Shown here: positions 3,789 to 64,000 of the stretch, one piece after another
How the letters are laid out: every line of letters starts with the position of its first letter
Numbering within the stretch: position 1 is the first letter of the stretch
Virus record (IMG/VR): IMGVR_UViG_3300028388_003280
Coordinates: 54,197-118,196 of that record
Strand: one strand, 5' to 3'
Source of the DNA: a virus
DNA: 64,000 bases
Made by a program: the position numbers and the translations under genes
Notes under the pieces: model-generated
Seen by the model: only the letters and a program-made list of their open reading frames with translations
What the model was told of the DNA's origin: nothing
Database searches by the model: none

Positions 3789-4105
3789 TGGATTGGCTAC
3801 CTCTAGCTTCTTACATCACAAATGGCATCCTCGTTGTAATAGTAGCCCTGGGAATCATCGTGATTCGGGGTATGCTAGCATCAAGAGATAGTATGATTGA
3901 CAGCTACAAGCGCCGAGATTTGACTGGACGTGAACGTGAGGATATCAGGAGACGGCTGTTGGCTAGTGGAACATCTGCGATCCACCCACATGAAATCTTG
4001 GACCTGATCTACACGTTCCGCAGTGTCGAGCTCGGTCAATACGAAGATAAAGACCCATACGTGCCAGCGGACCCATATGACGACATTGAGGAGTACATTG
4101 GATGA
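3788..4105 (+). CDS. Small single-pass membrane protein
   Basis: 105 residues. One hydrophobic segment (about 11-29) is followed by a basic stretch (YKRRDLTGREREDIRRR) and an acidic tail, so the C-terminus is probably cytoplasmic. It shares the final A of the previous TAA with its ATG (TAATG) and overlaps the next gene by ATGA. No family recognised. Confidence 0.65.
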   Translation: MDWLPLASYITNGILVVIVALGIIVIRGMLASRDSMIDSYKRRDLTGREREDIRRRLLASGTSAIHPHEILDLIYTFRSVELGQYEDKDPYVPADPYDDIEEYIG

Positions 4106-4356
4106 TGAAGACTGTGCTCAAACGAATTGCACCCGGATACTACTCGGGCCTTGGGAAAACGACCGTCGACGGCAAGCCAGTAAAGCTGAAGATCAACGTT
4201 ATCAGAGCTCAAGCTGGAGCTTGGTATTGGCAAATTGACAATGAAGACGCACACGATTGGTACCCAACGAAAAGGGACGCAAAGGATGCCCTCGACCGCG
4301 TCCTTGCAACGGGGTTCAGGCTAGATCCCCGCTACGGTCGAGTCATCGATCGGTGA
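4102..4356 (+). CDS. Hypothetical protein, 84 aa
   Basis: Begins in an ATGA overlap with the membrane-protein gene. It has a beta-rich first half (KPVKLKINVIRAQAGAWYWQI) and a helix DAKDALDRVL near residues 57-66. Coding is supported by the tight coupling and a coherent composition. Function unknown. Confidence 0.6.
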   Translation: MMKTVLKRIAPGYYSGLGKTTVDGKPVKLKINVIRAQAGAWYWQIDNEDAHDWYPTKRDAKDALDRVLATGFRLDPRYGRVIDR

Positions 4357-4399
4357 TCTTCCGAGGCCTCGCGGGTAATTAGAGATACAGGAGCACACA

Positions 4400-4765
4400 G
4401 TGCCTAGGAATAGAGATTACTGGAACGCACTCGAGGCCCACATACGTACGAACCCCCACGACCTGTATGGTATGGGTTCAACACATGGCGCAAACGCACT
4501 GCGCCGGCTCGCCAAGCTCATCGCCCGTCATGCCAAGATCCACAAGAGCAGGGAAGACACTATTGCGTACGCTCATAGCAAACTCGCTGATCTTCATGCT
4601 ACTGGTTATATCCAAGCTCTCAGTCCTGGAGCCTGTAAGGGCATCTGCGAGCTCATTGCACCGATATATGACTTCAATGGATGGAAGCCGATCGAAGCAG
4701 ATGAGCTCCTCACAGCAGGAGGCGACGATGCACAGCCACAAGTTCAACTACCCCGCAAACATTAA
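4400..4765 (+). CDS. Hypothetical helical protein, GTG start
   Basis: 121 residues, read from GTG at 4400 with CAGGAG upstream. Basic helical centre (NALRRLAKLIARHAKIHKSRED). The C-terminal 12 codons are overlapped by the next gene in another frame. No recognised family. Confidence 0.55.
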   Translation: MPRNRDYWNALEAHIRTNPHDLYGMGSTHGANALRRLAKLIARHAKIHKSREDTIAYAHSKLADLHATGYIQALSPGACKGICELIAPIYDFNGWKPIEADELLTAGGDDAQPQVQLPRKH

Positions 4766-4988
4766 CCCCTGCCGCTTCTGCGGTAGTGAGGACGTAGCGC
4801 TCGACGCTGCACTTATCCGTTTGAATGACGGACACCTCACAACGCTATTCAATCTCGGATGCACAGAATGTGGCTATACCACTCGAGACTATGAATACCC
4901 TGACATTGCTGCCCACGCTTGGAACATGGCGGCCAAGCTTGAGATCAATGCGCTCCTAGACGCGGTGGCAGATCCTACAGAGCAATGA
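4728..4988 (+). CDS. Lar-like zinc-ribbon protein
   Basis: 86 residues. Two knuckles, CRFC and CTEC, are followed by a helix containing AHAWNMA. This is the arrangement of the Lar (restriction alleviation) family, whose founding member reduces type I restriction of phage DNA. The start at 4728 has GGAGG upstream and lies inside the end of the previous gene. The family is broad, so an anti-restriction role is only a hypothesis. Confidence 0.55.
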   Translation: MHSHKFNYPANINPCRFCGSEDVALDAALIRLNDGHLTTLFNLGCTECGYTTRDYEYPDIAAHAWNMAAKLEINALLDAVADPTEQ

Positions 4989-5191: not shown

Positions 5192-5687
5192 CGCCCTTGC
5201 GGTGCTTTGCCTATTCATTGCCGTCTTTCAGACAGTATCGGATAACAGGCATGAGCCACGAATGCACAATTGGGAAATCGTCACGGATGATCCGGGAATC
5301 CCGGTTCTTCCAGCGCCGCTCCACATTCCAGTCACCGTCACAATCTATCACCCAGTTCCCGAGCAGACCGACTCAACCCCAAACATCGTCGCCTCCGGCA
5401 AGAAGATCAAGATCCACCGCGCACGCTATTACCGCTACGTCGCTGTATCACGCGATCTGCACAAGCGTTGGGGCGGACCTCTCTCGTTTGGCGACATCAT
5501 TGAGCTCAAAGATGCGGGCTATCTTTCGGGCTTCTACATCGTCGAAGACACGATGAACGCCCGTTTCAAGAATCATGTAGACGTCTTGCTTTCGCCGGGC
5601 GATCCGCTAGCAAAGTTCCCTAACGCACTACTGGTGATGACCAATGGCACAACACGGATGGAAGACCCTCCACGGGCAGCCTATTGA
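5178..5687 (+). CDS. Exported 3D-domain (RlpA/MltA-like) protein
   Basis: 169 residues from a GTG start. An N-terminal signal-like segment (MKKISALAVLCLFIAVF) is followed by a double-psi beta-barrel of the 3D type: VTIYHP near 54-59, YRYVAVSRDL (87-96, first Asp), GGPLSFGDIIEL and GFYIVEDTM...HVDV carrying the other two Asp. This fold occurs in peptidoglycan-acting or peptidoglycan-binding proteins such as the MltA catalytic domain. A role in the cell envelope during lysis or entry is plausible. No other lysis gene is recognisable nearby. Confidence 0.65.
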   Translation: MKKISALAVLCLFIAVFQTVSDNRHEPRMHNWEIVTDDPGIPVLPAPLHIPVTVTIYHPVPEQTDSTPNIVASGKKIKIHRARYYRYVAVSRDLHKRWGGPLSFGDIIELKDAGYLSGFYIVEDTMNARFKNHVDVLLSPGDPLAKFPNALLVMTNGTTRMEDPPRAAY

Positions 5688-6195
5688 AAGCATCTATGAC
5701 GAACTCGCAACCGTTTTCAAGGAGGCGTATGAGCAAGACTACGACTGCTTTGTCTACGTCGGAACAGACAGCCAGAACCTCGGCTCACGAACCTCGTTCG
5801 TACAAGTGGTTGCTGTCCACATTCTCCGTGACACTGGCCGTGGTGATGGTGGCCGTGTTTACTATATCCGCCATCTGGAGCGTAGGTATCGCTCTCGTCG
5901 CGAGCGTCTTCTCAGGGAAGCAGAGTTGAGCATCAACCTTGCCCAGAAGATTAACCCAGTTTGTGAAGAGCACGGGATTGAGTTTGAGGTCCATGCTGAC
6001 GTCCACTCGAGCCCTGGCCGCAATAACGAGAACAAGAGTCACGAGGTTCACGACGCTGTGGTTGGCTGGGTGAGCGGCATGGGATACAAGTGCGTCACCA
6101 AGCCTGGCGCCTTCGTTGCCAGCATCGTTGCAGATAGACACACCCGCGGGGTCAAGCAACCGCGAAGATTCAAGAAGCACAAGGCCAATAGCTGA
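5644..6195 (+). CDS. YkuK-type (DUF458) RNase H-like protein
   Basis: 183 residues. Landmarks of the family are visible: YVGTDSQ (38-44, Asp42), HADVHSSPG (118-126, Asp119), and the C-terminal VTKPGAFVASIVAD (151-164) with Asp164. These acidic residues fit an RNase H fold metal site. The start overlaps the 3D-domain gene by 44 nt; no better start is seen. The gene ends in TGA, which is itself part of the downstream TGAGTATTTAGA motif. The substrate is unknown. Confidence 0.7.
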   Translation: MAQHGWKTLHGQPIESIYDELATVFKEAYEQDYDCFVYVGTDSQNLGSRTSFVQVVAVHILRDTGRGDGGRVYYIRHLERRYRSRRERLLREAELSINLAQKINPVCEEHGIEFEVHADVHSSPGRNNENKSHEVHDAVVGWVSGMGYKCVTKPGAFVASIVADRHTRGVKQPRRFKKHKANS

Positions 6196-6219
6196 GTATT
6201 TAGATATTGGAGGTCCAAC
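6193..6219 (+). promoter_or_regulatory. GTATTTA motif with strong ribosome site
   Basis: TATTTA at 6197-6202 sits 23 nt before the ATG at 6220, followed by GGAGGTCC. The string TGAGTATTTAGA overlaps the previous stop codon. The same module recurs at 11806-11832. Candidate late promoter. Confidence 0.5.
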
Positions 6220-6423
6220 ATGGATTCAAGACTAGCACGAAAGATTCAGTCAGAGGCAAACGATCTCATGCGCCTCGGCAAGCAGGCCGACAAGCTACGG
6301 CTGATGGAAGAAGACGACGTCGAGGAGCTGTATGATATCTCGCAGGACCTCATCGCATCAATCCAGGCACTAGAAGAGGTCGTTACTGCGCTTCGCAAGG
6401 AGGCACGCAAGAATGAGCGATAA
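6220..6423 (+). CDS. Small helical protein, module A copy 1
   Basis: 67 residues, entirely helical and highly charged (MDSRLARKIQSEANDLMRL...). It is a paralogue of the gene at 6706: both begin MD[SA]RL and end in a Leu/Glu-rich helix. With the next gene it forms a two-gene unit that is repeated immediately downstream. A coiled-coil partner of that protein is a fair guess. Confidence 0.7.
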   Translation: MDSRLARKIQSEANDLMRLGKQADKLRLMEEDDVEELYDISQDLIASIQALEEVVTALRKEARKNER

Positions 6424-6706
6424 GCTACCCAAGTATACCCGCGTCATCGTAGAAGGCGAAGAGCAATTCATTCTACGTGAAGCACAGTTCGACCCACGAA
6501 AAGCAAAGCGGCTGCTGAGCCAATTCGGAAGTGGTCTGTTCGGCTATGCAGAAGATGTTAAGGGCGCCCTCGGAGAACAGGATCCTGCATACGCAGCAGA
6601 GTTGATCGAAGACGTTATATACGATCTTCAAGACCTCGCTGCAGACATGGAAGAGCTCCACGACGAAGCTCGTGCAGCAATGGACGACGACCCGGAGGCC
6701 TTCTAA
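6413..6706 (+). CDS. Small helical protein, module B copy 1
   Basis: 97 residues. N-terminal beta segment LPKYTRVIVEGEEQFILRE, then an acidic helical body ending DLQDLAADMEELHDEAR. Paralogous to the gene at 6894, which starts SKLPRYRKVINE and has WVLRE at the same place. Overlaps module A by 11 nt. No known family. Confidence 0.7.
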   Translation: MSDKLPKYTRVIVEGEEQFILREAQFDPRKAKRLLSQFGSGLFGYAEDVKGALGEQDPAYAAELIEDVIYDLQDLAADMEELHDEARAAMDDDPEAF

Positions 6707-50538: not shown

Positions 50539-50550
50539 CGGTGAAGCGTG

Positions 50551-51516
50551 ATGACATACATTCAGAAGACAGTCGTTGATCTCCTTAGCGAGATGTTCGG
50601 CTTTCCCCGTCGTTTCTCACATGGCCAAGCGGACGTACCGTTCAACTGTCCAAAGTGTGATGCTGGCGGCAACAAGTACAACCTAGAGGTCAACACAGCC
50701 AAGGGCGTGTTCAACTGTTGGGCCTGCGGCTATCGTGGCAAGCTACTTCGGTTGTTTAAGGACTACGCATCCGAACGCCAGTGGGCTATTCTGCGCACCC
50801 TGCCGATCTACAGTGAGGCAGCTGGCGTCATTGAGACAGCCCCCGCCCGTGGCCCCAAGGTTGACGTCACACCAAAGGAGTCACTAGGCTCCTTCAGGTC
50901 GCTCACTGTGCGGTGGGACGACTCAATTCACTACCTGGCGGCTTTGAACTATCTCAAGGACCGCGGCATCAACGAACGACTAATCAAGAAGTGGGACATT
51001 GCCTATGCCGACGAAGGGCCGAACAAGCATCGTGTCATCATTCCGAGCCGCAATGAACAGGGCGAGCTCGAGTATTACGTGGCCCGTGGGTTCTACGACA
51101 GCGTCTTTCCAAAGTACCGCAACCCAAGCATCAGCAAGCAGAGCATCATCTTCGGTGAGAAGTTCATCGACTGGCGAAGCCCTGTCGTCCTCGTTGAAGG
51201 CGTCTTCGACGCCCTCATCGCACTCAATGCTGTACCGATTCTTGGTACTGAGATCCGCAGTCACAAGAAGCTTCTGGCTAAGATTAGAGCTAACCGTACT
51301 CCGGTCACTGTTTGCCTTGACGCAGAAGCTTGGGACAAGAGCAAGGCGGCGTATAAGGTCCTTGATGATCTTGGAGTTGATGTGCGCATCACAAGAGTCC
51401 CAGACCAATACGGAGACCTGAGCTCCGCATACGAGAAGGGTGGAAAGAGCGCGGTTCTTGGCATCCTAGACTCGGCACATAGAATGACATTTGAGGAGTC
51501 ACTGTGGTCCGCATAG
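50551..51516 (+). CDS. DNA primase (zinc-binding plus toprim)
   Basis: 321 residues. Zinc knuckles C33/C36 and C56/C59 (FNCPKC, FNCWAC) form a DnaG-type zinc-binding domain. The toprim domain has VVLVEGVFDAL (Glu216) and VCLDAEAW (Asp257). It makes RNA primers for lagging-strand synthesis together with a helicase not seen in this window. ATG 50551 is preferred over GTG 50548; the ribosome site is weak. It overlaps the nuclease gene by 13 nt. Confidence 0.8.
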   Translation: MTYIQKTVVDLLSEMFGFPRRFSHGQADVPFNCPKCDAGGNKYNLEVNTAKGVFNCWACGYRGKLLRLFKDYASERQWAILRTLPIYSEAAGVIETAPARGPKVDVTPKESLGSFRSLTVRWDDSIHYLAALNYLKDRGINERLIKKWDIAYADEGPNKHRVIIPSRNEQGELEYYVARGFYDSVFPKYRNPSISKQSIIFGEKFIDWRSPVVLVEGVFDALIALNAVPILGTEIRSHKKLLAKIRANRTPVTVCLDAEAWDKSKAAYKVLDDLGVDVRITRVPDQYGDLSSAYEKGGKSAVLGILDSAHRMTFEESLWSA

Positions 51517-52241
51517 CACATGTCGCAGATGTACATCTAAGACTAAACCAACGACATGACGAATACCGTCAGGTGTTCCGTCGAATGTTCAAGAAGCTGA
51601 AGGAGCAGAAGCCTGATCGAATCGTTATCGCAGGCGATCTGGTCCACTCCAAAATCACCATGTCTCCAGAGCTGATTTCGCTCATGGAGTTCTTTCTTAA
51701 CGGTCTACGCCGGGTCGCACCAGTGGACGTGTTACCTGGTAATCACGACCTCAACATGTCCAACAAGGGGCGTATGGACGCCCTCTCACCGGTAATCAAC
51801 GCAATCAAGAAGCAGAAGGGCAACCTACATGAGATCCACTACTACACCAAGACTGGTCTCTATGAGGTGCCTGGAACCAACATCGTATACGCAGCGTGGT
51901 CTATGATGGACGGCAAAGAGCTGTCTTTTGAGAAGGACCCTGACAAGACATACATCGGCCTATTCCACGGGGCGGTTCGTGGAAGTCGCATGGACAATGA
52001 TTACTACCTCACCGAAGCAGATGCTTCAGAGGACCAGTTCGATCAGTGCGACATCGTGATGTTGGGCGACATTCATGGTCGCCAAGGTTTCGGCGAAGAG
52101 CGTGAGGTTGAGCTCGAGGAGACACTCACCGAAGAGGAGCTGAAGCGATTGAAGGACCAAGACAACGTCGAGATCATCGAGGTTGCAGATTTGGACAATG
52201 AGCAAGACCTACAAGGTGAGGTATCGCAAGACGCTTCCTAA
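51504..52241 (+). CDS. gp47: gp47/Mre11-like nuclease, catalytic part only
   Basis: 245 residues from GTG, with GAGGAG upstream. All phosphoesterase motifs are present: Asp9/His11 (DVH), Asp45 (GDLVHSK), GNHD (79-82), His155 (LFHG) and GDIH (188-191). T4 gp47 is about 340 residues; here the chain stops after an acidic helical linker (EETLTEEELKRLKDQD), and the part that normally follows GDIH (YPGS..QQNFGE) is found at the start of the next gene in the +1 frame. The nuclease is therefore split or needs a frame change. Confidence 0.8.
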   Translation: MVRIAHVADVHLRLNQRHDEYRQVFRRMFKKLKEQKPDRIVIAGDLVHSKITMSPELISLMEFFLNGLRRVAPVDVLPGNHDLNMSNKGRMDALSPVINAIKKQKGNLHEIHYYTKTGLYEVPGTNIVYAAWSMMDGKELSFEKDPDKTYIGLFHGAVRGSRMDNDYYLTEADASEDQFDQCDIVMLGDIHGRQGFGEEREVELEETLTEEELKRLKDQDNVEIIEVADLDNEQDLQGEVSQDAS

Positions 52242-54819
52242 GCGCATGCAGTACGCTGGATCAACCATCCAGCAGAACTTTGGGGAGACCCTGGACAAGG
52301 GATATCTCCTGTGGGACATCAAGGACCGCGACAACTACGACAGTGAGTTTGTCAAGCTAGAGAATGACTATGGCTTCTACACAATCCAGGCAGATGGTGG
52401 CGAACTACCAGATATTGAGCTACCTCCTAAGTGCCGCGTCAGAGTCATATGGCCGATCGCCGAGCGAGACATCAGCCGTTCCCTGGTCAATGAGCTCACA
52501 CAGATGGTGCACGACAAGTACAAGCCCCTCTCCGTTCGGATTGATTTCAAGCCGGGCAAGTCACGCGGCACCGACCTAGACATCGACACAGTGCTCGACG
52601 TCCGCGAGCTCAATGTGCAGCAAGATCTACTCAGGAAGTGGCTTGTCGCACACGAGCTCCCGGAAGACATGCAGGCCGAGATCGTAGACATCGACAAGGT
52701 GATCTTCGACAAGGCATCTGATCTTGATATGGAGGACTTCCACCAGAGTGTGTGGAAGATCAATAGCATCGAGATCAAGGACTTCATGTCTTACAAAGGA
52801 CCCGAGATTATCGACTTCCGCAAGCTGCGTGGAGTCGTAGGTTTGTTTGGTGACAACCGGTCTGGCAAGAGTGTCATGATCGATGCCATCCTTTATGCCC
52901 TCTTCAACAAGACCACACGCGATGTCAAGAATCACGAGCTCATCAATAAGGTCACCAAGGCTAAGAAGTGTAGCGTTCGACTCAACATCACGATCCGCGG
53001 TGTAGAGTATCAGATCACTCGCGTGACCAAGATGCAGTTCAAGAAGCGCACAGGTGAGTACACGTGGACACGAACCGACCTCGAGCTCAAGCGGGTTCAC
53101 GAGGATGGCACTGTTGAGGACCTCACAGAGACTCAACGCAACGAGACCGAGAAGATCATCCGTAACGCCATTGGCTCGTATGATGATTTCCTCACAACGA
53201 CGCTAACCACACAGTCCAGCCAGCACGAGTTCATCTTCCAGAATCCGTCAGTTCGTGCAGCAAATATGGCTCGCTTCCTTGGCCTCGAGATCTTCAACAA
53301 GAAGCACGATCTCGCGAAGGAAGTTCTTCGTGAGGTTGATAGCGCCCGTAAGGTGCAGGACCTCGACGCGAAGACTCGACTGCTTACAAAGACTCGCGAA
53401 AAGGCTGAGCAGGCTAAAAAAATGGTAAGTGAGAAGCGCAAGCTATCTCGCGACCTGGGTACGCAACTGCGCAAACGCAACGATTTGCTCGAGACCCTCC
53501 GCAGTTCAATCAATTCCGCAATCACGATCGACAAGACCCGCGAGGAGCTTGAGGATCAGATGGCCGATGTGTCAAACGATCTAGATCAGCTCGCTGAGAT
53601 GAAGCATCAGGAGACTGCGTCACAACTCGACTATCTTGCCCGCGCCAAGAAGGCCGAGGCAATGCTGAAGGACGAGACTGAGGAAATGGTCAAGCTTGCC
53701 GATCAGTTGCCAGAGCTGATGGATGCCGACATGCGCGTCGCTAACCGCATGACGACCTTGCGTGCCCTCAAGAAGAGCTTGAACGAGGAGCTGTCCAGTA
53801 ATCCGTCATGTCCAGTCGGTGAGAACGATGTAACAGCCGGCTGCGTGTTCCTGAAGCAGGCCCAGACCAAGCGCCAGCATCTTGCTGAATACACTGAAGA
53901 GTTGGACGAGCTAGCTGAGAAGGGGGCAAAGCTCTCTCGCAAGATCGAACGCGCACAGAAGGCTGCTCAGCGTCTTGCCGACAATTCTCAGGTTCGCAGC
54001 GCAGTTCAGAAGCTTACACATCAGGCCGAAGAGTGCCGAACCCAGGCCGTTGCGATCGACAGCAAGATTGAGCTAAAGGAAATGGCTCTAGCCATGCTGG
54101 AGGACAAGGTTGAGATCATCGCCAAGAACGAGGAGATCGTCAAGTCCAACAGAGCGCTGACTGAGCAAATTGACGAGACCAAGAGTCAGATCAGGAAGCT
54201 GCAGGATCAGCGCGATCGTGTCAACGACGAGGTTACAGAGGCATCTTCGGACCTTGCGGTGGCTACGGCTCGGATTGAAGAGCTTGAGGCTCTAGTAGCT
54301 GAGATTGCAACCAATGATCGAAAGTACGAGCTCTACAATTGGTATGTCAAGGCGATGCATCGGAACGGCATTCCCATTACGGTTCTCCGCAAGTACGTGC
54401 CTGTCATCAACTATGAGCTAAACAAGATTCTGTCGCCCATCGTCGGCTTCGGCGTCTACTTCAAGATCGAAGATGGGAATGACAACATCGAGATTGTCAT
54501 GCGATATGATGACAAAGTTGACGACACCCGCTCTATCACCATGGCGTCTGGCATGGAGAAGTTCATCGCCAACATGGCTATCCGTCACGTGCTGCTCAAG
54601 ATCAGCACGCTGAACAAGCCTACACTGCGCATCATCGATGAGGGTTTCGATGTACTGGACAACGACAATGTCTATCTAGTTCAGAAGTTCTTCGACAATG
54701 TTAAGGGCGAGTTCGACAACATCGTGCTCATCACGCACATCGACGCCCTGAAGGACTGTGCCGACCACGTTGTCACGGTTTCACAGGTGAATGGTGTGTC
54801 TAAGCTGCGGCTGAATTGA
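52198..54819 (+). CDS. gp46: gp46/Rad50-like ATPase with gp47 C-terminal domain at its N-terminus
   Basis: 873 residues. Residues 11-40 (KTLPKRMQYA, GSTIQQNFGE, GYLLWD) and the following 140 match the capping part of Mre11/gp47. Then comes the Rad50-type ATPase: Walker A GDNRSGKS (218-225), Q-loop area TTQSSQHEFIF, coiled coil about 380-720 with a hook-like C-x10-C (CPVGENDVTAGC), and C-terminal signature TMASGMEKFIANMA with Walker B TLRIIDEGFD. Processes DNA ends for recombination. ATG 52198 lies 44 nt inside the nuclease gene. Confidence 0.8.
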   Translation: MSKTYKVRYRKTLPKRMQYAGSTIQQNFGETLDKGYLLWDIKDRDNYDSEFVKLENDYGFYTIQADGGELPDIELPPKCRVRVIWPIAERDISRSLVNELTQMVHDKYKPLSVRIDFKPGKSRGTDLDIDTVLDVRELNVQQDLLRKWLVAHELPEDMQAEIVDIDKVIFDKASDLDMEDFHQSVWKINSIEIKDFMSYKGPEIIDFRKLRGVVGLFGDNRSGKSVMIDAILYALFNKTTRDVKNHELINKVTKAKKCSVRLNITIRGVEYQITRVTKMQFKKRTGEYTWTRTDLELKRVHEDGTVEDLTETQRNETEKIIRNAIGSYDDFLTTTLTTQSSQHEFIFQNPSVRAANMARFLGLEIFNKKHDLAKEVLREVDSARKVQDLDAKTRLLTKTREKAEQAKKMVSEKRKLSRDLGTQLRKRNDLLETLRSSINSAITIDKTREELEDQMADVSNDLDQLAEMKHQETASQLDYLARAKKAEAMLKDETEEMVKLADQLPELMDADMRVANRMTTLRALKKSLNEELSSNPSCPVGENDVTAGCVFLKQAQTKRQHLAEYTEELDELAEKGAKLSRKIERAQKAAQRLADNSQVRSAVQKLTHQAEECRTQAVAIDSKIELKEMALAMLEDKVEIIAKNEEIVKSNRALTEQIDETKSQIRKLQDQRDRVNDEVTEASSDLAVATARIEELEALVAEIATNDRKYELYNWYVKAMHRNGIPITVLRKYVPVINYELNKILSPIVGFGVYFKIEDGNDNIEIVMRYDDKVDDTRSITMASGMEKFIANMAIRHVLLKISTLNKPTLRIIDEGFDVLDNDNVYLVQKFFDNVKGEFDNIVLITHIDALKDCADHVVTVSQVNGVSKLRLN

Positions 54820-54863: not shown

Positions 54864-55499
54864 ATGGTTTACAAGACCAAGCCGTTGGACCTCAGGCCGT
54901 TTGGCGTTTTTGACGTCACCAGGGCGGTTCTGACAGCCGATGCAGATGATGGATGCAAGTATAGGGTAAGCTTTGACGCCGGCCGAACATGGCGTGTCGT
55001 CGAGCTCAATGTTCCGTTCGATGCTGCGGCAACGGATTCACGCATCGTTGTCGAGATTAAGTTCCCGACCAAAGAGTCCGATGGTATTTATACATTGAAC
55101 GCCACCGGCATCTTCCCACTAAACGTTGGCACGACGGTGTATTTCACCGATGGAACCGAGACATTCTCGACAGTTGTTGGCCCACAAGGCCGCTACAACA
55201 TCACCCTGCCAGCCGGTATCTACCAGGTCTACTATAATCAAGCCGGTTCGCGAACTGTCCTCCTTGATGACTACAATCCCGAGGCGTTCGTTTACCGCCA
55301 GCCAGATGACCTCGACAAGGAGAACACCATCCAAATGTTTCTATCGCACATGGATTGGGCAGACTATTCAGTGTATGATACATTCAAGGATGGCTCCAAG
55401 ATCGACCCTGGCTCAACTGCACACATTGACATCATGCAGAATCTAACTGCAACTGGTTCAGATGCTGTGGTTCGCTACTGGGCCCTAGCCTTCAAGTAA
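54864..55499 (+). CDS. Virion/tail-fibre-associated protein, 211 aa
   Basis: Beta-rich protein (CKYRVSFDAGRTWRVVELNV; RYNITLPAGIYQVYYN). Its stop overlaps the start of the giant tail-fibre gene. Likely a fibre attachment or collar piece; no homologue recognised. Confidence 0.6.
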   Translation: MVYKTKPLDLRPFGVFDVTRAVLTADADDGCKYRVSFDAGRTWRVVELNVPFDAAATDSRIVVEIKFPTKESDGIYTLNATGIFPLNVGTTVYFTDGTETFSTVVGPQGRYNITLPAGIYQVYYNQAGSRTVLLDDYNPEAFVYRQPDDLDKENTIQMFLSHMDWADYSVYDTFKDGSKIDPGSTAHIDIMQNLTATGSDAVVRYWALAFK

Positions 55500-58400
55500 T
55501 GAGATCAACATACTATATTCGCAAGCTTCGCAGGGTGGTCAATGGGGTTCCGCTGACCATCATGGAGAAGGTGTTTCTCGATCAGGAGACAGATCTCCAA
55601 GAGGCTGAATCGATTCGCCACTCTGAACTCCTGGGCTTAGATCAGAACGACCATCCACAATATGCACTCTCCGGTAGTGTCCGTGAACTTGCCGATGCCA
55701 CCGAAGCAACTTTCGCACAACTCAGGGAACAGCTTAGAACAGGCGAGATTGATATTGAATCGCTGTCCGTTCTCGACCAGCTTGAGCAGCAGACGCCAGA
55801 CGACGTTACTGTCGAATTCAGTCTGGCCAATATTCCGATCACTGAGTCTTCTCCTCCGCCAAATTCTGTGTTGGCATTTGAGCCGTTCTCACAGACACTG
55901 GTCTGGAGAAATCCTGGCGACCTTCTAGCAGATATCTTTGATGTCGAGTTCAACGACATCCGCGAGTCCGTCACTAATGTTAGTGATTCGCTCGGCGGTC
56001 TAGCTGCACAAGTTAATCAGAACACCGCTGACATTTCGACGCTCGACACCACCATTTCGGAATATCCAAATCGGTTTGACTCTGACTATATCCGCAGCAA
56101 GCTTCTTCATCTGACATTTTTCAACGATGACAGAGGCGTGCTCGATAGCGGCCCAAATGATCTGACTACGAGTCACGGCCTTCAGTGGAACGACCACTCC
56201 ACCAGTGCAGACATGACCGGGTTCTATGCCATCGACGTTGGTAGCGGCGGATCTAGTGCTGAAGCGATCGCCAATGACTACTATGGCTTCAGGTGGACCG
56301 TTGGTGAAAACCACCCGGATGAAGACGAAATAAACTTCTCCATGCGGTTTACGATGTCCTCGAACGCTGATCGTGGCTGGGTCTTTACACGAGTAGGTCC
56401 AGGGTATATCCCAGTTGCAGCTATTGATACGACGGGCAACTTCTATCTTCGCGGAAACCAGATTGGATGGGATAACGCCGAGCCCAAGTTCCTGACATAT
56501 GACAACGTGCCAGACTCAAAGGACGGATACGTTTTCACGTATGATTCTGGTACGTCTGCTGTCACGCTTCAGTTCAACGCCGGTTCTGGCGGCGGAGGCG
56601 TCACCGAACACGGCGATCTAACAGGACTCCTCGACAACGATCATCCACAATACGCACTGACTGGATCGGCTGTTGAGTTTACTGTTGTTACTGCTACGAC
56701 AGGAACGCTCGTCCTCGGCGAAGGACTTGGCAATCCGCTTGGAATGACGTTAAAGCCTGATGTGCCTGGAACATGGTTCATTGGCTGGGACGATACGGTG
56801 GGTGAGCTCTACGCATCAAATAACATGACAGTTGATGGTGACCTGACAATCTCAGGTGATATCATCAACTCTGCGTTTACTGAGCTCAAGAATCACCGTG
56901 AGCGGATTGTTACGCCGTATGACTTTGGCGCCGTTGGCGATGGTCTGACCGATGACACAGCTGCCATCAACGCAGCGTTTCAGTATTGCTTTGAGCTCAA
57001 CACGGCTGCAACACCAACGTATATCACTGGATCGGCTAATGCAGTCAACGCGGCTCGGCTTCGAGCCGCTGAAGAATCATGGCAGGTACAGATGTATGGC
57101 ACGTTCCTCGTGTCAGATACCATCATGGCAAAGGCTCCAGTCAGGGGTCGTACCGCAACACTCGTCACACCAGAATCTGGGTTCACGGGAACAGTTCTTC
57201 AGATTGATAAGGGTGCGCCACGAGATACAACTGATTACGCAGGCTTGAATGGTGAAGGTTTCTGGTCGCAGTTCAAGGACTGCACCATGGAGCTCCCGTC
57301 CATCCTCATTCGACGCACGCCAGAATATCCAAGCAATGGCGATATCTTCCCACCGATCACTGGCGTTGAGATCTACAACATGACCTGGAGCACAGTGTAT
57401 TTTGGCGCTGTGCATGATTGTGATACCGGCGTTCTACTCACGGCGCCAATCAACGAGCCACGTGGTACAGAGCACAACCACTTCTTCCTCAGCGCCATCA
57501 AGGGCTGCAAGATCGGCTTGCTCCTCGATACTTCATACTCAAATTCTGGCTGGGTCAACGAGAACACGTTCTACGGCGGTGACATCAATGCTGGCGTATC
57601 TACGGGCGGCACCAGAGTACCCGGTATCAAGCACATTTGGATTCGGTCGAAGTACATGCCAGACGGCAGGCTTCTCGGTCCAGGCAAGAATACGTTCGTG
57701 CGCCCATGTCTCGAGGGATCTCGTGAGGAGTACACAATTCTATGTGAGGGTGCGAACAATGAATTCTGGCATCCACGGATCGAGACGTTTGGGTTCACCG
57801 GCGCGCAAATCTGTTTCTCTGGAAGCAATGTGGACTCTGCAGACTTCCGCGGCGGACACCAGAATGTGATCCGCGGTGGACTTGCTATTGACTGGATGCT
57901 CGACCCGGAAAATGACTACGGCTTCATTTCGTGGTCAGGCATCACGCCCCAGCAGAATACAAACCAGTTTTGGACCTCGAAGCACGCGGTCCAGTTCAGT
58001 ACTCGTATCCTTGATAAGGATGAGACTGATGGAAGCAACACAGCCGATATAATCTTTGGCAACTTTGATAGCTCGCATCCGTTTGGTCGACGCATGCAGC
58101 GTATCATGACATCACGCTCAGCATTCTTCCAGGATCCCGAGGGAATCTTCTCTGCAGATACAGGCAGCTTGTTCCTTGGTGGTAGTAGTGCCGCCGGCGG
58201 CAACATGTATCTGAAGACCAAGAGTACTGACTGGTCCGAGACTGGTTGGACAAAGGTTCATTCAGATCAAGATGGCGTTCGCAACATCACGGGTAGTCTC
58301 TACGTCAACTACGATGGTGAGAACGCCGCGTCGACTATCTATTTCTATGACGAGAACGGCTTCATTAACCCACAGGGTGCGCTCAGTCATTTTCTGCAAC

Positions 58401-58603
58401 CAATGAGGTCATTGCAGACGAAACACTGCGCGTCGGCGCGTCATATGCAGCTGTTGGAGTCAATGACAGCATCATCCAATTCGCAGATGGCTCAAAGAAT
58501 CTCCGGTGGGAAGCATCGCTTCAGCAATTCTCATTCAACGATGCGCTTGAAGTCCCTGGCATTACTACTGATCCCTACTTCAAGGCTGATGCCGACGGCG
58601 TAG
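55499..58603 (+). CDS. Tail fibre/tailspike, N-terminal part ending at a frame change
   Basis: As read, 1034 residues. NDHPQY trimer-type motifs near 51-56 and about 380, Gly-rich hinge (SGGGGVTEHGDLTG), then YDFGAVGDGLTDDTAAINAA (about 474-493), the start of a pectate-lyase-type beta-helix typical of tailspikes. The frame stays sensible to about 58390 (FINPQGALSHF); after that the protein is nonsense, while the -1 frame continues the fibre. CAT TTT CTG contains a T run at 58390-58393. Either a base is missing or ribosomes slip there. Confidence 0.8.
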   Translation: MRSTYYIRKLRRVVNGVPLTIMEKVFLDQETDLQEAESIRHSELLGLDQNDHPQYALSGSVRELADATEATFAQLREQLRTGEIDIESLSVLDQLEQQTPDDVTVEFSLANIPITESSPPPNSVLAFEPFSQTLVWRNPGDLLADIFDVEFNDIRESVTNVSDSLGGLAAQVNQNTADISTLDTTISEYPNRFDSDYIRSKLLHLTFFNDDRGVLDSGPNDLTTSHGLQWNDHSTSADMTGFYAIDVGSGGSSAEAIANDYYGFRWTVGENHPDEDEINFSMRFTMSSNADRGWVFTRVGPGYIPVAAIDTTGNFYLRGNQIGWDNAEPKFLTYDNVPDSKDGYVFTYDSGTSAVTLQFNAGSGGGGVTEHGDLTGLLDNDHPQYALTGSAVEFTVVTATTGTLVLGEGLGNPLGMTLKPDVPGTWFIGWDDTVGELYASNNMTVDGDLTISGDIINSAFTELKNHRERIVTPYDFGAVGDGLTDDTAAINAAFQYCFELNTAATPTYITGSANAVNAARLRAAEESWQVQMYGTFLVSDTIMAKAPVRGRTATLVTPESGFTGTVLQIDKGAPRDTTDYAGLNGEGFWSQFKDCTMELPSILIRRTPEYPSNGDIFPPITGVEIYNMTWSTVYFGAVHDCDTGVLLTAPINEPRGTEHNHFFLSAIKGCKIGLLLDTSYSNSGWVNENTFYGGDINAGVSTGGTRVPGIKHIWIRSKYMPDGRLLGPGKNTFVRPCLEGSREEYTILCEGANNEFWHPRIETFGFTGAQICFSGSNVDSADFRGGHQNVIRGGLAIDWMLDPENDYGFISWSGITPQQNTNQFWTSKHAVQFSTRILDKDETDGSNTADIIFGNFDSSHPFGRRMQRIMTSRSAFFQDPEGIFSADTGSLFLGGSSAAGGNMYLKTKSTDWSETGWTKVHSDQDGVRNITGSLYVNYDGENAASTIYFYDENGFINPQGALSHFLQPMRSLQTKHCASARHMQLLESMTASSNSQMAQRISGGKHRFSNSHSTMRLKSLALLLIPTSRLMPTA

Positions 58604-61600
58604 CCCTTGGTTGGCAGACCACAGACGGTTTCTACAACGTCTCGATGACTGGTGTGGTCGGTTTGCTGTCTGGTGCGTTGCAAACGAACCGCATTCAACT
58701 GTACAACACCCCGACTGTTCTCGGCGCCGCCACGCGAGAAGCGTCGATCGACTTTGCGAACGACGTCGGTACATCCAAGTTCTGGCTCCACCTCGATTCG
58801 GGCAACTCGTACAATACGCTTGTCCTGAAGGATGCCAACGTTTCAAGCGCGCCGATCATGACATGGGATCGCGAGTCTGGTGCGACCTACGCTGGCGGCT
58901 CCATCATTGTCAATTCAGAGGATCTCGGCGTCAGTGACGGTGGAGCATCCGGCTCAAAGATCTTCTTCGAGAACGGCACCGATCTGTTCACACATCGCAT
59001 CCGCGTCAACACAGGCCAGTTTTTCATTGAAGGCGGTGACACCAACGTCCAGAATAACCTTGGCGTTGGCGAAGATGCGTATATCCGCTCTGCAAACCTC
59101 TCTGACTCAGATGCATACGTTTATTTCTACGACGGTGGATCTGTCACCGGCCAATATCTCCGTTGGGACGACAGCGCACAAGAATTCCAATTCTCGACTA
59201 TACTTAGCGCTACGACCCTCCGCACCGATAACCTGAACTTGAACGGCACGTCTGTTCTGTTTAACGCTGATGGACCAAACAGTAATATCAATCTTTACTT
59301 CTATGATGACACACCAGTTGGCCAGTATATTAGATGGCTTTCAACCCAATCTAGGTTTGAGTTCAGCACTGACATTCAGGTAAATGGTGGCATCACAGCC
59401 CACACAGATTCTTACTTTGGCCAAGAGCTCTACCTTACAGCTGGTTCTGTTGTTTACCTCACAGACGCAGTCTCTGCTACAACTCCGTGGGCAAATGGTA
59501 CGCACTTCGCGTTCGGTGATTCGCTCACTGGTACGATGGCTATCTGGGGTGCATATGGTTTGGAGCCCGAGAGCGTTGAATACATGTTCGCTGGCTCGTC
59601 GTGGGACAATGCGCCCCTCAAGGTTGTACCAAGCAGCGGATACGTTGGCATCAATGTCCCAAGCACCAATCTCCCAGTCTATGAGCTCGACGTCTATGGA
59701 TCCGGCCGATTCAACAATGATCTGATCGTCAGTGGTAACATCCTTGCAGATGCTGTATCGTTGGCATCACTCGAGGCTCCACCATATTTCAAGGCAGACT
59801 CTGATGGTGTCGCCCTTGGTTGGCAGACAACCGATGGTTTCTACAATGTCTCGATGACCGGAACCGTCGGCCTTCTGTCTGGCTCACTACACACAGGTCG
59901 TATCCAGGTTTACAATTCACCAACGGTGTTTGGTGATACTACCGCAGGCCGCGAAGCTTCTATTGACTTTGCCAACAGTCTTGGTACACCTATATTTTGG
60001 CTATATGCCGATTCCGGAACTGGTTACAACACTCTAGTTCTAAATGAGGGCTCAATCGGATCCAACGCCCTCATGACGTGGGATAGGCTAAACGATCGCG
60101 TCGGTATCAATCAGGCCACACCGGGCCGAAGCCTTGATGTCTGCGGCGACACGCGCCTTGCTGGTGCTGTATTCGCCGGCGGCTCACTGACAATCAATTC
60201 AGAAGATCTAGGCAATGGCGACGCAGGCGTAAATGGGTCCAAGATCTTCTTTGAAGATGCCGGTGACCTTACGACGCACCGCATCCGGGTTCAGAACAGT
60301 GCATTCAATGTCGAAGGCGGCGACCTAAACTCCGATAGTAACATCACTGCTTATCTCGACATGGCGTTGGGTACACAGCCCGGCGCCCGCGATCCAGCAA
60401 CAACTGACACGGTGCTGTATTTTGGTGCCGATATTGATCGCGAGCTCAGGTGGGATGCATCTGACCAGCGCTTCGCGTTCAATTATCCACTATTCGTCGA
60501 TGGCACATTCAGTGCAGATTCTTCTTGGTTCAGTGGTGCCGTAACTGTTGGTGCACAGAATAACACTGTTACCACTGACTCTGTTCTGTTCTTCACTAAC
60601 GATTCTTCAAAGAACTTACGCTGGGATGCAAGCGCACAAGCGTTTAGGTTTACAGATTCCCTAAGTGCATCGTCGTTTGAGACTGGCCGCTACTTCAAGG
60701 CTGATGCTGATGGTGTAGCCCTTGGGTGGACCACCACAGACGGTTTCTACAACGTCTCGATGACTGGTGTGGTCGGTTTGCTGTCTGGCGCACTCCATAC
60801 GAACCGCATTCAACTGTACAACACACCAACTGTCCTCGGTGATGGCTCCCGCGAGGCCTCGATCGACTTCGCAAATGACATTGGTACATCCAAGTTCTGG
60901 CTTCATCTTGATTCAGGCAATTCGTACAACACGCTTGTTCTGAAAGACGCTAGCGTTTCAAGCGCGCCGATCATGACATGGGATCGCGAGTCTGGCATGA
61001 CGTATGTTGGTGGCTCTCTTGTCATCAACTCGGAGGACTTGGGCAACGGTGATGGTGGTGCAATTCAGGGCTCAAAGATCTTCTTTGAGAATGCTGGTGA
61101 TCTAACGACATACCGTATCCGCGTCCAGGGCGGCCAATTCCTTGCAGAAGGCGGCGATTGGAACACGGACTCAAACTTCGTCGCAGCCGAAGAAGCCGCA
61201 TTCGGTACCGAGCGCGATCCAGCAACAACTGATACTAACATCTACATTGGTTCTGCACTTGACCGCACTTTGAAGTGGGATGCTTCAGAACAGCAATTCG
61301 TTTTTAGTCATGAGCTTTATGCACCGACTATCACGGCTGATACGATTGATGTGGGAACCTTCAGTACGGCTACAGTGTGTGGTACGACAGCTGTTGTTTC
61401 TGATGGAGCACTGTACACGAACTATAATGAGACTGCTGCCGATAGCGTTGTTTATTTCTCAGGAACAGAGCACGACCTAAGATTCTCCGATAGCACTAAG
61501 CGCTTCGTGTTCAGTGAGGGCCTTTCGATACCAACTGGTGGCATCCAGGTGACCGCAAATGTCTCCGCATCGAACTTCAATGCGACGGTTGGTGTCAATT

Positions 61601-64000
61601 CTGACGGTTATGTGCGCGCAGATACTGATGTCTACATTGATTACGATGAAACTGGCGGAGACAGCTTCCTGTACTTCTGCGGCACTGAACGCCAGTTGCG
61701 CTGGGACAGCTCGAATGATTCATTCGTCGTTAACACCGCGCTTTCTGCAACTGGCGGGATAACCACAGATTCTACACTTAGAGTGGGTGCCGCAAACGGG
61801 GCTACCGGTGTAATTGACAGCGTCATCCAATTTGCAGATGGGTCGAAGAATCTCCGGTGGGAAGCGTCTAATGCAACCTTCTCGTTTAACGATGCTCTGG
61901 ACGTTCCAACTATTACTGCTGATCCCTACTTCAAGGCCGATGCTGATGGCGTAGCTCTTGGTTGGCAAACTACCGACGGTTTCTACAACGTCTCGATGAC
62001 TGGCACTGTGGGTTTGTTGTCTGGTGCACTTCACACTGGCCGTATTCAGCTGTACAACTCTCCAACTGTGTATGGTGAGGAGGGTTCCCCCCGAGAAGCA
62101 TCAATTGACTTTGCAGACGACGCCGGTGCATCTAGGTTCTGGCTGTATGCTTCATCTGGTAACTCCTACGACACACTAATACTCAACGAGGCCTCAGTCG
62201 GCTCAAATGCGCTCATGTCTTGGAGCCGCACAAGCAATCGTGTTGGTATCAATACGGACAGCCCGACGTATTCCCTCGATGTTGTTGGAGAAATTGCTTC
62301 GACGTCTAACATCTACGTTGATTATGATGGGACTGGCGGCAACAGCTACGTATTCTTCTGTGGTACTGGTCGATACCTTACATGGGACACCGCATCTGAC
62401 CGCTTCGAATTCAACAAAAATGTCTACACAACTGGGTTCTTTGAGTCTGTAAATGGTGGCACGTTCGGAGTCCGCGTCAACACGCCAGAACTTCGCGTGT
62501 CCGGGGAGGACATCTTCCTTGGGCATGATTCTGGTGTAAACCAAGATCTGACCATCTATTTCCACCACGACGCAAGCAATACAGGTCGTTGGCTTCGTTG
62601 GGACACGAGTGAGGACCGCTTCGCGTTCAACGACGATCTGTACACGGAGGGTCAGGTTCGTGCGAACTCTTCGATTTGGGCGCAGGCGGGAAGCCTTCTG
62701 ACGAGTGCTAATCTCTATCTTGGCTACAACCAGTCCGACGGTGACCGCTTCATCTATTTCGCTGAAGGTACGAACACAGGTCGCCACCTGAAATGGGACG
62801 ACGGCTCCAGCCGATTTGAATTCAACGATACAGTTTATGCCGACGCATTCTGGTCAACAGGCAATCTGATTTCCAACAACGACCTGTACCTGAACTACGT
62901 TGGTCCCGACGGCGATGCGAGCATCTACTTCTACGAAGGTGGCTCTGCAACCGGTCGCTACCTGTCGTGGGATGATAGTTCGAACAGGTTCGCGTTCAAT
63001 GACACACTGTATGCTCCCCAGTTGACCACACCCGATGTGCTTATCACCCAGAATTCAGGGGATGCACTTCGCCACAATTCATCACTGACCGTCACCATGT
63101 CCGGCACATCCGCTGGCTGGTACCGTCTCGCAACGTGCGGAAGCGGATCAGGTGAGCGTGGTGGTTTCCGTGTTATTCTCTCAACGCTCGGTGGCAACTG
63201 GGCTCCAGCAACATTCATCATTGATGTCTTCACAACCTGGGCAGCAACGTCAGGTGATTCAACTGTCCACATCACAAAGCATGGGACACCAAACTACATC
63301 CTTGACGCCCGCATTGCTTACCGAGGAACTGACAAGTCCCTTGAAGTCTATGTGCCCGCTGATCCTGACGGTCATCAGTTCACTGTTTACACTCAGACCA
63401 TCAATGGCTACAACCGAGACTGGCAGGTTGAGACTGGAACCCTACTCGAGACTACAGCTCTCGGAGTCCCTGACGCCACTATTGCTCAGGCATCCTCGAT
63501 CACATCTGCCGCCGGACAGACATACGAGAACCTTGGTGTCACCGACAACATCTACATCGGTGTTGGTGGTGGATACGAAGGTGACAAGGACCGCTTTATC
63601 TACTTCTACGACGGTGCCAGCGACACGGGCGAGCATCTCAGGTGGGATGACAGCGAAAATAGCTTCTACTTCACGAACAATCTCAACGTTAGCGGTGGTG
63701 TCCGAGGCGATACACTTTCGTCCGAGGGCGGCGTATTTGTCAACATCGATGGTCCAAACTCCGATTCGTACGTGTACTTCTATCAAGACACACTCGTCGG
63801 TGCGTATATGCAATGGGACACCAGCGACGAGAGGTTCACATGGAGTCATGGTGCGTATGTTGGATCTGGTGGTCTTTCTGCAGCTACTCTTTATTCAGAC
63901 TCGTCACTGAGGCTAGACAACAATGATTCTGGAACCGCGCAGATTTTCTTTGACGACGCAGGTCAGAATCTAACGTACAATGCATCTAACCAGTATTTCT
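58369..64000 (+). CDS. Tail fibre continuation, repetitive, runs off the window
   Basis: A single open frame without a stop from 58369 to the window end; sensible protein begins at SATNEVIADETLRVG (about 58394). It needs the upstream gene's start. The chain consists of beta repeats of roughly 40 residues ending L-[RK]-W-D-x-S...F-x-F (YLRWDDSAQEFQF, LRWDASDQRFAF, YLSWDDSSNRFAF), with four longer repeats inserted. It would form a long trimeric shaft; the receptor-binding tip lies beyond the window. Confidence 0.75.
58390..58393 (+). other. TTTT run at the tail-fibre frame change
   Basis: Reading CAT TTT then stepping back one base to TCT GCA ACC joins GALSHF to SATNEV with no lost sense. One more T here would fuse both frames directly. 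Confidence 0.6.
58570..62235 (+). repeat. Four copies of a ~310-bp tail-fibre module
   Basis: Copies at about 58570-58881, 59782-60090, 60688-60996 and 61921-62235. Each encodes YFKAD.DGVALGW.TTDGFYN, VSMTG.VGLLSG, REASIDFA and a closing TW-type segment. Copies 1 and 3 are the most alike (both have TVLG, TSKFWLHLDSGNSYNTLVLK). They alternate with the shorter beta repeats. Confidence 0.8.

Follow-up and report, generated by a model that had tools for sequence, protein, structure and literature searches.

The Mre11-Rad50 gene in the 64,000-nt stretch of viral DNA analysed in this study (the window, part of a 118,196-bp IMG/VR virus record) is probably a genuine gene-in-pieces, in which an ancestral gene for one fused chain was split into two cistrons whose products, chain A and chain B, would reassemble. 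Mre11-Rad50 is a universal machine for processing DNA ends and occurs, as far as is known, either as two proteins or, in rare cases, as one fused chain. The break in the window lies within the Mre11 part, at a hairpin that is also broken in five lineages besides the window (LR756508, a clade of 33 contigs, L295, L312 and L307/L310). A search of the literature found no report of a split inside Mre11.

Organization of the split locus

Both halves are single-copy in the 118,196-bp record (Table 1). The Mre11 nuclease motifs were confirmed in chain A, the N-terminal part of the split gene, which holds all of the phosphoesterase motifs and the entire Mre11/SbcD nuclease core through GDIHGRQ; residues 3-192 match Metallophos, and the GTG start is preceded by a strong Shine-Dalgarno match. 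The initial annotation had described this ORF as stopping after GDIHGRQ and an acidic linker, and its coordinates, frames and sequences all held. It had also placed the next gene in the +1 frame, overlapping by 44 bp and running into a gp46-like ATPase, and this was confirmed, the overlap counted from the ATG being 52198-52241. However, the opening of that gene had been read as KRMQYAGS, and it is MSKTYKVRYRKTLP instead. The chain B ORF is open from 52153 and has a TTG at 52183 in addition to the ATG at 52198. Its N-terminus reads MSKTYKVRYRKTLPKR, followed by YAGSTIQQNFGE, where the capping domain starts.

Table 1. Features of the split locus in the window, and of the inserts between the halves in two other lineages
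Feature	Position	Strand	Remarks
Upstream primase-like gene	50548..51516	+	Neighbour conserved whether the gene is fused or split
Chain A, Mre11/SbcD-type nuclease domain and acidic C-terminal tail	51504..52241	+	GTG start; 245 aa
GDIHGRQ, last metal-binding motif	52065..52085	+	G188-D189-I190-H191 invariant; break in hairpin 3' of motif
Acidic tail of chain A	52086..52238	+	51 aa, net charge -15; not in any unbroken relative; coding in frame 0
GAGG, possible ribosome-binding site for chain B	52179..52182	+	15 nt 5' of ATG (long spacing); -7.1 kcal/mol, mid-range for this phage
Chain B, head, Mre11 capping domain, Rad50-binding helices and Rad50/SbcC-type ATPase	52198..54819	+	873 aa from ATG
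Basic head of chain B, MSKTYKVRYRKTLPKR	52198..52245	+	16 residues, net charge +7; overlaps chain A end
TCC-TAA at chain A end	52236..52241	+	Sole obvious candidate +1 slip site; use judged unlikely
Mre11 capping domain	52252..52554	+	Starts YAGSTIQQNFGE; limits approximate
Helices at the place of the Mre11 Rad50-binding helix-loop-helix	52597..52734	+	3tho_B to residue 372; limits approximate
Walker A GDNRSGKS, Rad50 part	52849..52872	+	Within chain B
LR756508.1 (L003) insert	5665-6582		305-aa ORF; zinc-finger-like repeats, TnsA-like endonuclease domain
L065 insert, glycosyltransferase-like	4049-4981		Ends overlap both halves

In chain B the capping domain and helix-loop-helix (HLH) are followed directly by the Rad50 ATPase, with an AAA_23/SMC_N match from residue 193 and a PHROG SbcC-like match from residue 158. 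In a profile built from the joined region and 72 relatives, the matches to solved structures follow the same order: Mre11, including its capping domain and HLH, comes first and Rad50 after it. The AlphaFold2 model of the joined A/B region matches SbcD/Mre11 structures, the nuclease core and capping domain being confident and the link between them poorly ordered. A nuclease core on one chain with the capping domain and ATPase on the other, as first suggested, is the best-supported reading.

The gene in the window is not one uninterrupted chain, since it has a stop at 52239-52241 plus a frame change. Both halves are open, and start and stop signals are present at the cut. When a codon model trained on the other genes of the window was used to score the frames, the chain A frame scored 0.78 bits per codon over 52153-52197 and the chain B frame was negative there; both frames were near zero (ambiguous) in the overlap, and the chain B frame scored 0.56 from 52242 onwards. 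Because the codon scores favour the chain A frame as far as 52197, the acidic tail is real coding sequence whatever happened downstream. Ordinary same-strand gene overlaps are many in the window, and the one between the ATG at 5644 and the stop at 5687 is likewise 44 bp.

The fused chain in relatives

Single-protein searches of IMG/VR with either window ORF and a distant blastn against phages gave no matches, and alignment queries were therefore needed to reach relatives. About 300 loci were recovered from IMG/VR and GTDB by alignment, some contigs being represented twice; scanning for a Walker A pattern did not reveal any close relative of the window. Among the first 250 classified loci, 210 were fused (172 distinct proteins) and 40 were split, all 40 at the hairpin between GDIH and YxGS. 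These 40 come from LR756508, the window and a single clade of 33 distinct contigs, some of which are represented twice. A final search contributed another 52 fused loci and two further splits at the hairpin (L295 and L312), along with two loci in which the break lies elsewhere (L263 and L306), and brings the unbroken fused loci to 262. A single ORF encodes both parts in Microcystis phage Mel-JY01, in a 735-kb phage and in Tenacibaculum phage pT24. A single fused Mre11-Rad50 chain, as carried by these relatives, is the usual state in the family of the window gene. The comparison of the junction in related phages that had been recommended therefore found it mostly fused. The fusion of the Mre11 C-terminal domain to Rad50 stands, but it did not arise by transfer of a capping domain to gp46: with 262 fused loci, the arrangement is a fused gene that was split.

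The spacing from GDIH to YxGS is 10-18 residues in the 206 of 210 fused loci in which the motif was found, and an insertion in the hairpin was seen in none of the 210. The fused genes L263 (6839-6843), L306 (4584-6080) and L298 have frames broken at places other than the hairpin; in contrast to the hairpin splits, these breaks look like indels or decay.

Recurrent breakage at the hairpin

The five other lineages differ in what lies between the halves. In LR756508, a 484-kb phage, a homing-endonuclease-like gene sits at the cut. This insert is similar to phage HNH endonucleases and probably encodes a homing endonuclease of the free-standing kind; there is also a resemblance between its endonuclease domain and a PHROG labelled head closure. 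Such a gene was found at the cut in LR756508 only, and none is present in the window. The 33-contig clade, to which L065 belongs, has as its insert a gene for a protein of about 300-320 aa that is weakly similar to heptosyltransferases. This glycosyltransferase-like gene is a stable insert in the clade and an unusual cargo for such a site; in L108, L110 and L120 the intervening ORF was missed by the filter, and the gap is of the same size. The halves in L312 are separated by a 128-nt spacer with no clear gene. The stretch 5675-5800 of this spacer is readable as ...NAQLALKECRKRPEFVENVFVDKLKQYEVL*, which may be the terminal part of a gene since lost; a search of the spacer for a remnant of such a gene found no match. 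The halves of L295 share a TTGA start/stop and overlap directly, as those of the window do. L307 (5001-5726) and L310 (4980-5720) have the nuclease half only, with the ORF ending at the same place. These two contigs, which are close to the fused L072, end about 30 nt past the conserved tail, as if the assembly had broken off at the insertion site.

A quick LG+G4 tree, with tails and inserts removed, included the five split lineages that have both halves, the window among them. These need five state changes, of which at least four are forced by well-supported branches; a smaller set of loci was likewise placed on a tree for counting splits. The window is on a long branch, which leaves its exact place unsure and its apartness from the other split lineages supported. 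With a fused ancestor, parsimony implies that the gene was split several times or that a cassette arrived more than once. Strong purifying selection acts on both halves in the 33-contig clade (dN/dS about 0.02-0.10), and the split forms of this clade are therefore evidently functional. Its tail, 25 codons long, is mostly conserved as well, with noisier dN/dS values.

Because unrelated branches are broken at exactly the same loop, the break appears to be a real, recurrent split rather than a sequencing slip. The initial annotation had regarded an indel as the simplest alternative. Such an explanation, in which a sequencing or assembly indel or a recent inactivating mutation fell in a fused Mre11-Rad50 gene with a long hairpin insertion, is unlikely, because five other lineages are split at the hairpin and no unbroken relative has the insertion. 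It demands an insertion of about 50 residues that none of the 210 fused loci has, the indel must land by chance in about 90 of 3300 bp at the site of five other splits, and a start codon with a mid-range Shine-Dalgarno match stands at the frame change. The explanation nevertheless keeps some weight because the window's junction is known from a single contig, no second contig carrying it having been found, because the contig has a second apparent frame break, and because the window tail has no conserved tail motif. An indel within 52153-52241 would join the frames, and breaks outside the hairpin do exist in L263, L298 and L306.

The second break was the one frame change without any start codon found in a scan of the window, at 58379, and on account of it indels are possible in this contig. 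It lies in a tail-fibre-like gene (55499-63999) in which coding signal is lost at about 58380 and resumes in another frame, open from 58369, reading on into 58645-63999; this is an apparent frameshift or indel.

Extensions at the cut ends

All eight tails are acidic (net charge -4 to -15) and all six heads are basic (+1 to +7). When profiles were made leaving one lineage out, the tails of L003, the L065 clade, L295, L312 and L307/L310 matched each other, with only 0-9 of 2000 shuffles scoring as well, and by this comparison the tails of the five other split lineages are homologous. The window tail does not match their profile, I-x-E-x-E-L-x-x-Y-x-x-x-G-W (1.8 bits; 2379 of 5000 shuffles as good), and in pairwise comparison it matches L312 alone, weakly (uncorrected p about 0.01). 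The window head resembles the other heads in its pattern and alone is not significant against them (881 of 5000 shuffles as good). The profile and shuffle tests therefore give no support to the idea that the window shares its tail and head with the other split lineages. The window tail was also compared with the start of the capping domain, and the idea that it is a degenerate copy of this was unsupported. Searches of other phage and plasmid proteins did not turn up the tail motif.

Joining of the two halves

The initial annotation had also considered that a frame change makes one gp47-gp46 chain. Programmed +1 frameshifting at TCC-TAA, giving this chain perhaps alongside free nuclease, is very improbable. 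The chain B frame is open through the chain A stop, and a TCC followed by a stop resembles an antizyme-type shift site. In known bacterial stimulation (prfB), a Shine-Dalgarno-like element acts close to the shift site, whereas the upstream Shine-Dalgarno-like GGTGAGG in the window is too far from TCC-TAA and there is no well-spaced stimulatory element. The product would also skip MSKTYKVRYRKTLP and lose the MSKTYKVRYRK head. Furthermore, the halves in LR756508 and the 33-contig lineages are separated by an independent gene of about 300 codons, across which a frameshift cannot join them, and no relative was found to share the TCC-TAA slip site.

Some fractured phage genes are known to carry split inteins and homing endonucleases, which raises the idea of a split intein, or of an intron spliced between the halves. 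Either is exceedingly improbable. No intein family matches either ORF, and chain A goes on as GFGEE after the motif rather than with an intein-type Cys/Ser start. No Rfam intron was found in the window, L003, L065, L295 or L312, and the halves overlap in the window and L295, so that both candidates are contradicted. A tRNA search was negative as well.

Proposed mechanism and relation to known systems

In the preferred reading, that of a split fused gene, the ancestor would have had one gene for a fused Mre11-Rad50 chain, and an interruption would have fallen in the surface-hairpin codons between GDIHxxQ, the last metal-binding motif, and YxGS, the start of the capping domain. The interruption may have been the insertion of an endonuclease gene that was lost later. 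No intervening gene is left in the window, and the overlapping cistrons are probably translated in turn by coupling. If both are expressed, chain A would supply the nuclease core with the metal site and chain B the capping domain and ATPase, and the two would come together again, with no peptide bond between them, as the usual Mre11-Rad50 machine. A likely contact would be the pairing of the acidic tail of chain A with the basic head of chain B, as these are extensions of the two severed strands. A broader proposal, which is more doubtful and is offered tentatively, is that the codons of the Mre11 hairpin are invaded repeatedly by a mobile cassette that does not splice and that supplies its own remedy at the level of protein, an acidic tail and a basic head by which the cut protein is kept together, while the homing endonuclease between them can be lost or give way to other cargo. 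The window would then be a late stage, with its cargo gone and its tails diverged.

Single-chain Mre11/Rad50 (SbcD/SbcC) fusions, including those of Mimivirus R555 and Bacillus phage 0305phi8-36, have been known since 2011 (PMC3175470). They occur in phages and metagenomes and share with the window the order of nuclease, capping domain, HLH and Rad50, but in the window a cut in the nuclease-capping hairpin leaves two overlapping cistrons in place of one gene. T4 gp47/gp46 are likewise Mre11- and Rad50-type proteins from separate genes. However, T4 is cut between the proteins, whereas the window is cut inside Mre11 and has the Mre11 C-terminal half fused to Rad50. In phage genes-in-pieces, too, two cistrons together encode a single protein, and a homing endonuclease gene may or may not separate them. 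Examples are Aeh1 nrdA-a/mobE/nrdA-b, Aeromonas phage 25 gene 43A/B and T4 39/60, and the split NrdA of Aeh1 and split gp43 (the phage 25 polymerase) are active in T4-type phages (PMC2988022); the pieces of the split nrdD of phiAS4 overlap by 40 nt (PMC3653736). The family of the window differs from these in the gene concerned, in having the same site hit in at least five lineages, in the glycosyltransferase-like insert of one clade and in the homologous acidic tails of the other lineages, and the window has no remaining insert. Split-intein fractured genes are similarly interrupted at a conserved position, and an endonuclease gene separates their halves, but no intein was found in the window and its halves would remain unjoined.

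A nuclease cut at one surface loop in several lineages offers a natural series (fused, with an endonuclease, with other cargo and with nothing) that could be used to test how genes-in-pieces arise and persist, and whether homologous tails are assembly clamps. If the proposed split is true, it would show that the ATPase chain can provide the capping domain in trans.

Current annotation appears to hide the Mre11-Rad50 fusion in phage records. Fused proteins in PHROG families 77, 100 and 35725 and in the Mel-JY01 and pT24 records are labelled as one half, under names such as SbcC-like, SbcD-like, metallo-phosphoesterase or AAA domain.
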